A DNA stretch of 20,371 nt, taken from IMG/VR virus record IMGVR_UViG_3300049158_000050, positions 1 through 20,371 of that record. One strand, written 5' to 3'. Under the pieces are notes generated by a model that saw only the letters and a list, made by a program, of their open reading frames with translations, made no database searches and was not told where the DNA came from. Shown one piece after another: positions 4,038 through 19,879 of this stretch (position 1 is its first letter; the number at the start of each line of letters is the position of its first letter). The position numbers and the translations under genes are program-made. This DNA comes from a virus.

Positions 4038-4568
4038 ATGAGTAGAATAATTTGGAAACTTGAAAAAAGAAAAATAGATGAACTAAAACCATTTGATAAA
4101 AATCCAAGAGTGATAACTGACGACTCACTTGATGAGTTGGGTAACTCTTTTGATGAAATTGGAAACTGCCAACCGATTGCGATTGATGTTGATAACACCA
4201 TTTTAAGCGGTCACGCCAGATGGATGCGACTAAAAAAAGAAGGTGAAAGCGAAGTTGAGTGCATGGTTCCAGATAGAAAACTCACTCCAAAGCAAAGAGA
4301 AGCGGTTGTAATTCGTATGAATAAAACGATTGCAGGAAAGTGGGACTTTGAAATTTTAAAAGATGAGTTTGAATTGAGTGATTTGATGGAGTGGGGATTT
4401 GAGGAACACGAGCTTTGCTTTGAACCTCCTGAAACTGGCGTTGATGATGATGAAAAAGATCAGACTGAAAAAAAGTACCTAGTTGAGGTTCAACTTTACA
4501 ATGAGCTAGAACAAAGTGACTTGTTTGATGATCTTGTTAACAAAGGGTTTATGGTAAGAAAAAAATGA
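4038..4568 (+). CDS. ParB/Srx-type nuclease-domain protein
   Basis: This 176-aa protein carries an N-terminal ParB-like fold (about 8-75): IDELKPFDKNPR, the LGNSFDEIGNCQPIAID stretch and the signature SGHARW (57-62). Phage versions often sit beside DNA methyltransferases or terminases, as here. The C-terminal 35 residues (YLVEVQLYNELEQ..., ending GFMVRKK) look like the beta-alpha tail of ParB-methyltransferase-associated proteins; the middle (112-150) is acidic. The start at 4038 is chosen because TGGGGA precedes it at good spacing; an ATG-less extension back to 3972 would run through the promoter and inverted repeat. It overlaps the methyltransferase by ATGA. Possible roles are CTP-dependent DNA binding, nuclease activity or help to the methyltransferase; none can be chosen. 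Confidence 0.72.
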   Translation: MSRIIWKLEKRKIDELKPFDKNPRVITDDSLDELGNSFDEIGNCQPIAIDVDNTILSGHARWMRLKKEGESEVECMVPDRKLTPKQREAVVIRMNKTIAGKWDFEILKDEFELSDLMEWGFEEHELCFEPPETGVDDDEKDQTEKKYLVEVQLYNELEQSDLFDDLVNKGFMVRKK

Positions 4569-5491
4569 ATTACGGAATATCTTACCAGGGATCAAAGAAT
4601 AAAATATTAAAAGATATTTGCAAATGGTTTGTCCCAAATGAAAATTTCTATGATCTATTTGGCGGTGGTTTTTCTGTAAGTCATTACATGGTTAAGCATC
4701 GGAGCAAGCACTTTAAAAACTTTATTTATAATGAAATAAGAAAAGGTGTACCTGAATTAATCAAAAATGCGATTGATGGAAAATACAGCTATGACGTTTT
4801 TAAACCTGAGTTCATAACAAGGGAAAAGTTTCACAGGGACAAGGAAGAAAGTGCATATATAAAACTACTTTGGTCATTTGGGAATAATGGAAGAGATTAC
4901 TTATTCGGAAAAGACCTTGTGAAGAAAAAACAATCACTTCACAACGCTATCGTATTCAATGAGTTCGATGAATTTGCAAAAGAGGTGATTGGAATAGATC
5001 AATTTAATGAAAAAATTAGTATTATTGACAGAAGGTTGCTGGTTAGAAATATTGTTCTAAGAAAAAAAGATAATGAAGTTGGTAGACTGAAAGGACTGGA
5101 ACAACTGCAACAACTGCAACAACTGCAACAACTGCAACAACTGGAACGACTGCAACGACTGCAACAACTGGAACTCTTAAATAAAAGCTATGAGCAAATA
5201 AACATAAAGCCAAACTCAACAATCTACTGCGATATACCTTACAAAGGAACAGCAGATTATGACAAGAATAAGCACTTCAATCATGATAAGTTCTTTGGTT
5301 GGGCGGCTTCGCAAAAAAACCCCTTATTCATTTCAGAATATAACGTTTCAGATAAAAGATTCAAATTGATTTGGATTGCAAAAACAATATCAAAATATTC
5401 GGCAACAAATAACAGTCAAAAAGTATTCGAGAAACTATATTGCAATAAAATTGCCTACGAAATGCTGAAAGATGCAAAAAACAACAAATAA
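4565..5491 (+). CDS. DNA N6-adenine methyltransferase (Dam/D12 class)
   Basis: This 308-aa enzyme transfers a methyl group from S-adenosylmethionine to adenine in DNA. YQGSK near the N-terminus (7-11), motif I YDLFGGG (29-35) and motif IV CDIPYKGT (222-229) place it in the D12 class; Ile replaces the usual first Pro of DPPY. Between residues 175 and 203 is a run of Leu-Gln-Gln / Leu-Glu-Arg triplets, encoded by nearly identical 9-base units, that probably forms an amphipathic helix or coil insert in the region before motif IV. The target sequence cannot be read from the protein; GATC is common for this class. The gene is coupled to the ParB-domain gene by ATGA. Likely roles are protection from host restriction or marking of phage DNA. 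Confidence 0.85.
   Translation: MNYGISYQGSKNKILKDICKWFVPNENFYDLFGGGFSVSHYMVKHRSKHFKNFIYNEIRKGVPELIKNAIDGKYSYDVFKPEFITREKFHRDKEESAYIKLLWSFGNNGRDYLFGKDLVKKKQSLHNAIVFNEFDEFAKEVIGIDQFNEKISIIDRRLLVRNIVLRKKDNEVGRLKGLEQLQQLQQLQQLQQLERLQRLQQLELLNKSYEQINIKPNSTIYCDIPYKGTADYDKNKHFNHDKFFGWAASQKNPLFISEYNVSDKRFKLIWIAKTISKYSATNNSQKVFEKLYCNKIAYEMLKDAKNNK
5096..5173 (+). repeat. In-frame 9-base tandem repeat (Leu-Gln-Gln)
   Basis: About five near-identical CAACTGCAA-type units lie in tandem, followed by diverged units encoding LER and LQR. The unit length is a multiple of three, so slippage would change the length of the insert without breaking the frame. Confidence 0.85.
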
Positions 5492-16118: not shown

Positions 16119-17015
16119 ATGGCGTTAAGCGATCCTAGAGCTATCTTTGGAGTACACTCAGTTGCTCCATACAACAGAACAACAGGCGAATTTTACGGAA
16201 TTGCAAAAGTTCTTGATAGCTCATCAATTGCAATAAATTCAGAGTTAATCAGCTTGCCAGGTGGTTCGCAAAAGTTCCCCTGGGCGGTTGAAAATGGGCC
16301 AAGTACAGCAGAGGTATCACTGTCAATCGGACAATACGATAACTTTTTACTTGAACTTGCTTATGGTGGCACTGCCACTGAAAATGCAGCGGAGGCGACA
16401 GGTAGCGTAACAACATTAACAGACAAAAGTGGAACTGTTGTCGATGCAACAACGGGTATTGCATCTGTTGGGGTAACATCGGGTGATAGTTCTGATCTTA
16501 AGTTTGGTAAATACGTTGTTAAAGTCGTTTCTGGCACAACTGTAGATGTCTATATGTCAAGTGACGTAGACTTTGCAAGAGGCACTGACGGCAGTTATCA
16601 AAACGACCTTTTAAAAATCACAGCTTCACCTATTACTATTCCAGATACAGGTGGAACGATTGCGCTGGCCGATTATGGCATTGAGTTTACAGGTGGTAGT
16701 GGAACTATCAATCTTGAAACTGCTGGGGCCATTGGCGATACAGCTACATTTTCAGTAAGGCCACCAAATACAAAGTCAACTGACTTAACTATTGGTGCAG
16801 CGACTGATATCGTACCAGAAGTTGGAATGATTGTTTATAGTCAGGCCCGTGGAAATGGTGAGCTTTTTGAGATTGACATTTACAGGGCAAAACTGACTGG
16901 CCTTCCATTTGGATTTACAAAATTTGAGTGGTCGGTTGCAGAAATTACAGCACAGGCCTATTATGATTCAACTAGGGATGGTGTTCTATCAATTAGACAC
17001 GTCACACCTAGTTAG
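16119..17015 (+). CDS. Major tail protein (tail tube)
   Basis: This 298-aa protein has a perfect AGGAGG site, as expected for an abundant virion protein. The N-terminal strand (FGVHSVAPYN ... GIAKVLDSSSIAIN) and C-terminal part (ELFEIDIYRAKLTGLPFGF ... FEWSVAEITAQAYYD) are the tube-fold halves seen in siphovirus tail-tube proteins. Residues about 90-215 are Gly/Thr/Ser-rich and may be an inserted surface domain. Gene order (tail terminator, this gene, chaperones, tape measure) is decisive. It ends 4 bases into a leftward gene, and a terminator follows. Confidence 0.85.
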   Translation: MALSDPRAIFGVHSVAPYNRTTGEFYGIAKVLDSSSIAINSELISLPGGSQKFPWAVENGPSTAEVSLSIGQYDNFLLELAYGGTATENAAEATGSVTTLTDKSGTVVDATTGIASVGVTSGDSSDLKFGKYVVKVVSGTTVDVYMSSDVDFARGTDGSYQNDLLKITASPITIPDTGGTIALADYGIEFTGGSGTINLETAGAIGDTATFSVRPPNTKSTDLTIGAATDIVPEVGMIVYSQARGNGELFEIDIYRAKLTGLPFGFTKFEWSVAEITAQAYYDSTRDGVLSIRHVTPS

Positions 17016-17248
17016 GTTACTTCCCTTGGATTTTGGCCGTCTTTATGGCGGCCTTTTCTTACTGACCTATTTGATTCTCTTAAGTCGTTTTCATCAAGCA
17101 TCTTTCTATCAGCATTAAATGCAGAATAGACTAAAAATAGAGAAATATTCCCTTTTGCATACATTTTTGCAAGGCCAGTGATAAGGTTTTTCTCATACTG
17201 ACTTACTCGGATTTCAATTCTTTCAGATAATTTTTGCTTTTCTGTCAT
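17012..17248 (-). CDS. Leftward ribbon-helix-helix protein within the tail module
   Basis: This 78-aa protein shows strand RIEIRVS, then two helices (QYEKNLITGLAKMYAKG and ISLFLVYSAFNADRKML), the ribbon-helix-helix pattern found in Arc-like repressors and MobC-like proteins. The C-terminus is basic (RSVRKGRHKDGQNP). The start is placed at 17248 with AAGGAT upstream; a further in-frame start at 17299 would run through its promoter. It has its own promoter that overlaps the ribosome site of the rightward chaperone gene, and its end overlaps the tail-tube stop by 4 bases. It is probably an extra gene inserted between tail genes. It may be a late-gene regulator or a lysogenic gene. Confidence 0.6.
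   Translation of the reverse strand: MTEKQKLSERIEIRVSQYEKNLITGLAKMYAKGNISLFLVYSAFNADRKMLDENDLRESNRSVRKGRHKDGQNPREVT
17035..17057 (+). terminator. Rho-independent terminator after the tail-tube gene
   Basis: GGCCGTC (17035-17041) pairs with GGCGGCC (17047-17053) around TTTAT, with one T-G pair, then TTTT. It lies inside the 3' coding part of the leftward gene on the other strand. Termination after the tube gene would set its level above that of chaperone and tape measure. Confidence 0.65.
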
Positions 17249-17302: not shown

Positions 17303-17716
17303 ATGAAATTAACTGAAATGGTGCCAAAGGAATCAAAACTAAAATTAGGTGAAAAAGAATTAACTTTAAGACCTATAAATCTATCAGATGAAATTTGGTT
17401 AGAAAAAGAGTTTGGCCAGGACGGTATTCAAGAAATTTTTGAAAAAGTTAAGATTGAAGAGATTTCTAGGATTGTTTTTAGGCTTTTGGTTGATGACGAT
17501 AAGTTATTTTTTAAAAAGCAAAACGTAAGGGCCGTGAGTGAAGATGGTGAAGTCAGTACAATTGAGCTTGGTGGCGTTGCTCTATTAAGGGCCATGGTTC
17601 ACGGTTGGGACGATAAACTGGCACTTTTAAACTGCTTACTTGAGAACATAGGAGCATCAAGGCCAGAACAAGAAGAAATAAACGATGATGATAAAAAAAA
17701 AGAAAAGAAAGAGTAG
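17303..17716 (+). CDS. Tail assembly chaperone, short form (lambda gpG analogue)
   Basis: This 137-aa protein would bind the tape measure and tube subunits during tail assembly. The N-terminus (LGEKELTLRPINLSDEIWLE) and the helical body match the size and style of siphovirus short chaperones. The end is extremely Asp/Lys-rich because codons 131-133 are AAA AAA AAA. GAGGATAA precedes the ATG. It lies between tube and tape-measure genes. A -1 frameshift near the end gives a longer form (next entry). Confidence 0.75.
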   Translation: MKLTEMVPKESKLKLGEKELTLRPINLSDEIWLEKEFGQDGIQEIFEKVKIEEISRIVFRLLVDDDKLFFKKQNVRAVSEDGEVSTIELGGVALLRAMVHGWDDKLALLNCLLENIGASRPEQEEINDDDKKKEKKE

Positions 17717-18003
17717 AAGAAACTGACTGGGCAACAATATTTGACTTAATCATTTCAGAATATAGTTGGAAAATAAAAGATATTTTAAACTTAACACTAA
17801 GAGAAATTAACTGGATATTAAATGCAATTATGAAAAGACAAAATGACAATCACGTATTTAATGCAAAAATCCATGGCTATGAAATAAAAGTTCCTCAACT
17901 TAATACCCCAAAGGCACCAAAGCAATCAACTGAGCATGACAGTACTATAAATCAAGCTTTTGAAAAATTAAAAGCAAAAAAGGCAGGATTACATGGCCGA
18001 TGA
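17303..18003 (+). CDS. Tail assembly chaperone, frameshifted long form (gpGT analogue)
   Basis: Nine A residues (17693-17701) contain A AAA AAA (17695-17701) in the correct phase for a -1 shift. After the shift, codons from 17701 stay open for 100 residues (starting RKERVEETDW and ending KKAGLHGR) to TGA at 18001-18003, 11 bases into the tape-measure gene. The fusion would be 233 residues: 133 from frame 0 plus 100. The extension has no start codon until about 17831, so it can hardly be an independent gene, and it fills the 276-base gap before the tape measure. A frameshifted G-GT pair here is conserved among siphoviruses. The only doubt is efficiency; no clear downstream stem is visible. Confidence 0.85.
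17695..17701 (+). promoter_or_regulatory. Programmed -1 frameshift slippery site
   Basis: A AAA AAA in frame 0 lets both tRNA-Lys re-pair perfectly after slipping back one base. It sits 15 bases before the frame-0 stop (TAG 17714-17716). No strong Shine-Dalgarno-like enhancer or downstream pseudoknot was recognised. Confidence 0.8.
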
Positions 18004-19879
18004 TAAAATTATCATTGAGTTTGATGGTGATATAAAACAATTAAAAGGAAAATTACAAAAAACCGATTCATCAGTAAATAAGTTAAAAACATCAGCTCAA
18101 GGCGTTGGTAAGGCATTAAATGCATCTGCAAAAATAGCTGCTGTAGGCTTTTCGGCATTGGTGGCCGGCATAGGGAGTGCCGTAAGTGCTTTTAGAGAAC
18201 AAGAGCAAGCTGAAATAAGGACAAGACAAACTATTGAGGCAACTGGAAAAGCTGCTGGCCTTAGTGCTGATGAAATCTTCAAGATGGCCGCAAACTTACA
18301 AAAAGTAACAACTTTTGGTGATGAAACAATCATATCAGGCCAAAACTTACTATTAACATTTAGAAATATAGGTAAGGACGTTTTTCCCAGGGCAACCGAA
18401 GCCATGCTTGATATGTCAACGGCAATAGGAATAGATTTAAAATCAAGTGCCATTCAACTCGGTAAGGCCCTAAATGACCCGACCGCAGGAATTTCGGCAC
18501 TGACAAGAGCTGGTATAACATTTTCAGAAGAACAAAAAAGACAAATTAAAACATTTCAGGATACAAATGACATTGCATCTGCTCAAGCGGTCATTTTAAA
18601 AGAATTAGAAAATCAATTCGGTGGCGCTGCTAGGGCCGCTGCTGGTGGTACAGGTTCTATTATTCAGACTAAAATGGTTCTAGGTGATATTCAGGAAGAA
18701 ATAGGAAGGGCCGCTTTGCCTGTTGTAGGTCTATTAAATGATGAACTAAGAGGCCTTGCCGAGAGCTTTGACAGTAATGGCGAAGCAATGCAAACATTTA
18801 AAACAGTTTTAGAAAGTTTGTCTAAAGTTGTGGCCCGTGCAAAAGCTGGTTTTAGTACATTAGGTGGCATTTTAGGTACAACACTTGCTGCTGGTATGGA
18901 GGCAGCAACACAAGCGATTAAATTTAATTTTACAGCTTCAAAAGATGCTATTGCATTGGGAGCAGAGCAAATTGCAGACGTTGTAAAGAATAGTGCCGAA
19001 ACATTAAATAAAGACCTTGCAAAAATTGATGAGGCATTTAGTGAGTCAAAGTTAAAGAATAGAGAAAAATCAAAGCAGTTATTGCTTGATGCCTTATCGG
19101 TCGAAGCTGAACAAGTTAAAGAACTAAAAGCTCAAGCAAAGATTGATGAAAATGCACTTTTAAATGAAATTGAAGCTGAATTGCACGCTATGAATTTAGA
19201 AAATAAAGCAATGCAGGAAGAGGCAATCAATACATTAGTAAAACAAAAACTAAAAGAAAGATTTGATGCCACAAGGGCCGTTGCCCAAGAAGATATAAAA
19301 GCATCAATAAAAGAGAATCAACTTAGACAAAAAGAAGAACAGCGTTATGGTAAAAATATTGCAGATTTTAGGGCATTAACACGTGATGAGGACTATAAAG
19401 GTGCAAAAGCAGCACTTGATAATTTAACTACATTAGGACGCTCAGGGAACAAAGAGCTTGTAGCAATCGCCAGGGCGGCCTCTGTTGCAAGGGCCATAAT
19501 AAATACCGCAGAAGGTGTAACTAAGGCCTTATCGTTAGGGCCAATTATTGGGCCAATACTTGCAGGAACAATTGCAGCGGCAGGTGCAGTCCAAATTGCT
19601 ACAATTAAGTCACAGAAATTTGCAAAAGGTGGAATGTTTACTGGTGGCATTGCAGGTGTTGATTCTATTCCTGCAATGGTTCAGCAAGGAGAGATTGTTG
19701 CACCGACTAAAAACTTTGAAGAGGTTATCGGTTCAGTTAGGGCCAAAAGAGAAGCTGAGAATTTAGGCGGTGGTGTTGGTGGTGTAAAAGAAGTTGTGAT
19801 CTCATTCAAAGATGATGCAATGGAATACATTGAAGCGCAAATCCTTGAACGAAGGGCCATTGGGGTAGGTAGTATATGA
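17993..19879 (+). CDS. Tape measure protein
   Basis: This 628-aa protein sets tail length and probably helps DNA enter the cell. After a short strand (DDKIIIEFDGDIKQLKGKL) comes a coiled-coil start, a hydrophobic segment (IAAVGFSALVAGIGSAVSAF, 48-67), long alpha-helical stretches and a C-terminal hydrophobic segment (about 513-538, LGPIIGPILAGTIAAAGAVQ), then FAKGGMFTGG and IPAMVQQGEIV, a characteristic tape-measure ending. At roughly 0.15 nm per residue the tail would be near 90-95 nm, an estimate from the general relation. GCAGGA precedes the ATG. It overlaps the frameshift extension by 11 bases and the next gene by ATGA. Confidence 0.92.
   Translation: MADDKIIIEFDGDIKQLKGKLQKTDSSVNKLKTSAQGVGKALNASAKIAAVGFSALVAGIGSAVSAFREQEQAEIRTRQTIEATGKAAGLSADEIFKMAANLQKVTTFGDETIISGQNLLLTFRNIGKDVFPRATEAMLDMSTAIGIDLKSSAIQLGKALNDPTAGISALTRAGITFSEEQKRQIKTFQDTNDIASAQAVILKELENQFGGAARAAAGGTGSIIQTKMVLGDIQEEIGRAALPVVGLLNDELRGLAESFDSNGEAMQTFKTVLESLSKVVARAKAGFSTLGGILGTTLAAGMEAATQAIKFNFTASKDAIALGAEQIADVVKNSAETLNKDLAKIDEAFSESKLKNREKSKQLLLDALSVEAEQVKELKAQAKIDENALLNEIEAELHAMNLENKAMQEEAINTLVKQKLKERFDATRAVAQEDIKASIKENQLRQKEEQRYGKNIADFRALTRDEDYKGAKAALDNLTTLGRSGNKELVAIARAASVARAIINTAEGVTKALSLGPIIGPILAGTIAAAGAVQIATIKSQKFAKGGMFTGGIAGVDSIPAMVQQGEIVAPTKNFEEVIGSVRAKREAENLGGGVGGVKEVVISFKDDAMEYIEAQILERRAIGVGSI

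Follow-up and report, generated by a model that had tools for sequence, protein, structure and literature searches.

The window analysed here is a 20,371-nt stretch of viral DNA (positions 1 to 20,371 of IMG/VR record IMGVR_UViG_3300049158_000050), and a G/GT-type tail assembly chaperone pair at 17303-18003 is well supported by the analysis below. The short form, G (17303-17716, + strand, frame 0), is an open reading frame of 137 aa whose homologues lie upstream of the same T domain in IMG/VR relatives. Its AlphaFold model has a pLDDT of 85 and a disordered Lys/Asp-rich tail from residue 122, and its 3' end reads ...GAT AAA AAA AAA GAA AAG AAA GAG TAG, with the frame-0 stop at 17714-17716. Upstream on the same strand, the probable major tail (tube) protein (16119-17015) is assigned by position, with no family match for the product in PHROG and Pfam searches. 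Downstream lies the tape measure protein (17993-19879, + strand; PHROG 27166, E=4.6e-43; Pfam TMP_2, E=4.3e-9). Between G and the tape measure gene there is an apparent gap of 276 bases (17717-17992), as an earlier, sequence-only reading of this DNA had counted.

This gap is filled by T, an extension in the -1 frame (17701-18003, + strand). At the transition lies a run of exactly nine A (17693-17701), longer than a bare heptamer, which contains an in-phase A_AAA_AAA (17695-17701) as a possible ribosomal -1 site. The sequence-only reading had recognized this heptamer correctly but placed it 15 bases before the frame-0 stop, from which it is separated by 12. The -1 frame is open over 17695-18003 and is preceded by a TAA at 17692-17694, directly before the third A of the run. 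Hence, it can be entered only inside or after the A run. The extension spans exactly 100 codons (17701-18000), which together with G residues 1-133 gives the 233-aa fusion proposed earlier; it does not end at the tape-measure start, as was also proposed, but overlaps the ATG at 17993 by 11 bases. No initiator lies near its beginning, in line with the earlier description, the sole in-frame ATG, GTG or TTG being at 17830, midway through the conserved domain. Among 2000 dinucleotide shuffles, 4 produced a 276-nt stretch open in one of the three frames, which makes the open -1 frame improbable as a chance event. The codon-usage score of the -1 frame is 0.47, compared with 0.27-0.48 for the genes and -0.2 for the other two forward frames. 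The run at 17693-17701 is the only one of nine or more A in the window. However, shuffled windows give approximately three nine-A runs each, so that a single run is not rare at this base composition and was not counted as evidence by itself; what gives it weight is that relatives conserve it.

When viral and bacterial contigs were scanned with the window's G, T or tape measure protein as single queries, no relatives were returned; these were gathered via the terminase and through alignments. Iterated searches placed the T domain in 57 further loci, giving 58 loci in total (49 clusters at 75% identity), one of which (L160) sits in a Bdellovibrionales MAG. T is in the -1 frame of an upstream chaperone-length open frame in all 58. 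The T of the window matches the C-terminal half of the profile of PHROG 33493 (tail assembly chaperone) with E=0.003, and the same family is matched by 19 of 33 relatives (best E 1.1e-6). A tblastn search also matches T to the extension that gp25 of Arthrobacter phage DanielleIgnace gains by frameshifting, in a gene annotated as a joined CDS. In close pairs of loci, substitutions fall mostly in third positions of the -1 frame, with counts by codon position of [22,11,43] for L108/L109 and [11,7,49] for a Vibrio phage pair. The extension is a real protein domain that evolves as a coding frame. Homology to annotated frameshifted chaperones, the -1 offset in all overlapping relatives and the third-position bias bear out the earlier description of a G-GT analogue, and a check of the relatives for stop codons in the -1 frame, which that reading had named as a possible refutation, left it standing. 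Judging from gene order, T homology and analogy, G and T probably act as tail assembly chaperones. For G, family and fold searches gave no match, and neither the G nor the T model had a significant match in fold searches, to solved chaperones or otherwise. An Rfam search also gave no match, and named phages and plasmids contained no DNA-level or close protein match to the G/T pair of the window.

The T family tree has two well-supported clades of 16 and 33 lineages, and the window belongs to the larger one (support 100/99). Within that clade, 28 of the 33 lineages carry a run of 9 A (25 lineages) or 10 A (3), and one carries 8 A; runs of 8 A were seen at two loci, L158 and L088. The remaining four (L116, L130, L159 and L127) have a heptamer or no canonical site, with heptamers lacking a long run in the first three. 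L127 (2959-3014) combines the -1 offset with neither a canonical heptamer nor an A run, reading CTG GGG GAG TGG where its sisters have CTA AAA AAG TGG or CTG GGA AAG TGG. Of the 28 lineages with 9-10 A, 15 have the first A at codon position 1, 7 at position 2 and 6 at position 3, and each of the two minority phases requires 6-7 label changes on a poorly resolved tree. The 16-lineage sister clade, mostly G+C-rich, has G_GGA_AAA or G_GGA_AAG in a single fixed phase with A runs of 3-7, and classical G_GGA_AAR or A_AAA_AAR sites occur in sister lineages. At most loci the junction run is the sole run of at least nine within several kilobases, even at 61% G+C (L111), and outside the junctions of the window's clade we found 2 runs of 9+ where approximately 14 were expected. 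A locus found after the rule had been formulated (L162) also has exactly nine A. In an independent sample, chosen by tape-measure similarity, runs of 6-7 are always phased for an in-frame heptamer, followed by a near-gap at 8 A and then by runs of 9 in all phases; here, A9 occurs in T families unrelated to that of the window, at G+C contents up to 0.63.

We propose that the pair is made through RNA-polymerase slippage at A9, which is the best explanation that we have and, given the sequence comparisons, a likely one. Most transcripts would carry nine A and yield the short G of 137 aa. In some transcripts, RNA polymerase would slip back on the template at A9 and insert one A, for a total of 10 (net +1), which leads into the -1 frame. 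The ten-A mRNA would then be translated normally into the T frame, giving the 233-aa G-T fusion. If the two parts work as in lambda, G may bind the tape measure and T may recruit the tail tube protein. Some -1 shifting by the ribosome may come on top, at the A_AAA_AAA within the run. Slippage is favoured over a ribosomal shift because a run of 9-10 A is conserved independent of codon phase. Published reviews and surveys of genomes put efficient slippage of bacterial RNA polymerase at nine A or T, a run length that is also avoided in coding sequence (PMC5009743; PMC1088944); correspondingly, the window has an uninterrupted A9 at the transition and its clade 9-10 A, in any phase and avoided elsewhere. 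Insertions into transcripts of E. coli and Buchnera are mostly of one base and fall in A/T runs (PMC5574713). Ribosome sliding on poly-A is robust at 11 A and slight at 9-10 A (PMC4363877). Thus, of the programmed -1 frameshift put forward in the sequence-only reading, the -1-frame extended product stands, but a ribosomal cause fits less well than polymerase slippage with a run kept regardless of codon phase. Mass spectrometry of junction peptides, suggested in the same reading, would give one result for both mechanisms, given that the ten-A mRNA encodes an identical ...DDDKKKRKERVEE... product.

A classical programmed -1 ribosomal frameshift at 17695-17701, with the extra A incidental or boosting the ribosomal slip, is the less likely explanation. 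The window and all its A-run relatives carry the in-phase heptamer, G/GT pairs of other phages shift on the ribosome, and the classical heptamers persist without long runs in sister lineages. In addition, no run shorter than nine A contains an in-phase A_AAA_AAA regardless of phase, and every A9 member thus carries a ribosomal site. However, that length is required for an in-phase heptamer only with a start at codon position 1; from positions 2 and 3, 8 and 7 A suffice, and a heptamer ending in AAG would serve as well. The run remains at 9-10 after a change of phase, and its conservation does not follow the heptamer. If only a heptamer were required, so many 9+ runs would occur together with a probability of 1e-12 to 6e-5, depending on the chance assumed for each extra A (0.32-0.6); this treats lineages as independent, which is only roughly true. 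Furthermore, A_AAA_AAG does not replace the run in A-run lineages, although it is more shift-prone than A_AAA_AAA in E. coli ribosomes (PMC5009743). Stimulators, which are usual but not obligatory for ribosomal shifting, gave no signal in the window or in 28 loci: downstream RNA structure is not enriched (mean z +0.28 over the 28 loci; window z -0.71), and a Shine-Dalgarno-like motif is found in 2 of 28, in a comparison confounded by G+C. Three further loci with A9/A11 runs (L023, L025 and L080) were examined for a +1 shift, since finding one would have ruled out a simple ribosomal -1 shift; all three are offset by -1. Reporter cassettes gave 10% frameshift product with 7 A and 40% with 9 A (PMC3711429), which suits ribosomal shifting at the longer run, but those reporters did not separate ribosomal from polymerase slippage. 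A point against polymerase slippage is that its reported level at A9-A11 in enterics (approximately 15-40%) exceeds the GT share in lambda (approximately 1 in 30). The ratio would therefore have to be another one here, or slippage would have to be weaker in these hosts. Ribosomal shifting at A9 may add to the product and is less likely to account for all of it.

It is very improbable that T is a separate gene with its own start, unfused to G. The ATG at 17830 could serve as such a start, but it lies 43 codons into the domain, and initiation there would lose the conserved DW..IFDL..SEYGW block upstream of it. The relatives examined have no start ahead of this block, and in the window a stop closes the frame where the run begins. 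T does have a start of its own in three distant loci (L152, L154 and L157, near 2970), at an ATG that precedes and overlaps the stop of the upstream gene, G, in another frame; in this lineage a separate gene may possibly have replaced the frameshift. DNA-level phase variation, with replication slippage toggling the fusion, or an assembly miscount of the run, both of which homopolymers invite (discussed in PMC3711429), is the least probable explanation of all: G and T are fused in frame in none of the 58 loci and offset by -1 in all, independent metagenomes, a MAG and the eight Vibrio phage isolates checked all show an identical A9, and T retains its third-position substitution bias.

Cultured phages offer a parallel to the arrangement that we attribute to polymerase slippage. 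As in the window, the gene preceding the tape measure gene has A9 at its end in Vibrio breoganii phage 1.082.O and Vibrio phage LP.2, and a 98-codon -1 extension follows. Unlike in the window, their T belongs to another sequence family and the run (nine A exactly) begins at codon position 3. Between the two phages (75% DNA identity) the run is intact while the flanking codons differ, and nine A are present in all eight Vibrio phage isolates checked. In the Vibrio phage records (L167, 2197-2472; L176, 578-877), the -1 extension is listed as a hypothetical gene in its own right, starting at an ATG in the V. breoganii phage records examined and at a TTG in LP.2. These annotations appear to overlook the chaperone fusion.

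The G/GT shift is a textbook example of a conserved translational frameshift in tailed phages. As in lambda gpG/gpGT, the site in the window lies near the end of G and before the tape measure gene, there is a short and a -1-extended form, and the extension ends at the tape measure start. Lambda-type sites, however, are ribosomal heptamers, such as the G_GGA_AAR of the sister lineages, whereas the clade of the window has a phase-independent A9/A10 and no stimulators. DanielleIgnace gp24/gp25 and PHROG 33493 share with the window a homologous T domain in the -1 frame, there annotated as a joined CDS, but the G part of DanielleIgnace is not detectably similar and its site is G_GGA_AAA. Programmed slippage at A9 in bacteria is represented by Thermus dnaX, IS elements, Shigella T3SS genes and Citrobacter tssM (A11). 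These systems likewise have approximately nine or more A at the frame transition and need no RNA stimulators, and their other form comes from transcripts with an inserted A, as would be the case in the window's clade. They are cellular or IS genes, unlike the phage tail chaperone considered here. A full-text search of the open-licence PMC literature returned no tail chaperone made via transcriptional slippage; an earlier description elsewhere is possible. The nearest statements are a passing remark on a prophage tape measure protein apparently made by slippage (PMC6095929) and a T6SS gene that uses an A11 run (PMC4256274).

It also appears reasonably likely that, in several unrelated chaperone families, slippage of the host polymerase at A9 sets the chaperone ratio, as a widespread second class of tailed phages whose lineages have switched to and from ribosomal heptamers. 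If this is true for a large group, the identical ratio problem would have been solved twice, once by the ribosome and once by the polymerase. The chaperone ratio would then depend on the RNA polymerase of the host and on factors like lambda N, which is reportedly a slippage inhibitor. Annotation tools built on heptamers would misjudge A9 sites, and reporters that bypass the natural polymerase, such as T7 polymerase constructs, could mislead. For uncultured phages, the rule of nine A before the tape measure gene aids the annotation of chaperone fusions.

Two other features of the window were observed. A small ribbon-helix-helix-like gene (weak TacA1/NikA matches) lies on the minus strand at 17012-17248, between the probable major tail gene and G, and is found in the same place and orientation in 15 relatives at 38-76% identity; an antisense gene inside a tail operon is unusual. 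Within a probable DNA methylase gene (4565-5491), an in-frame 9-nt tandem repeat of approximately nine copies (5086-5174) encodes the leucine/glutamine stretch LQQLQQL.
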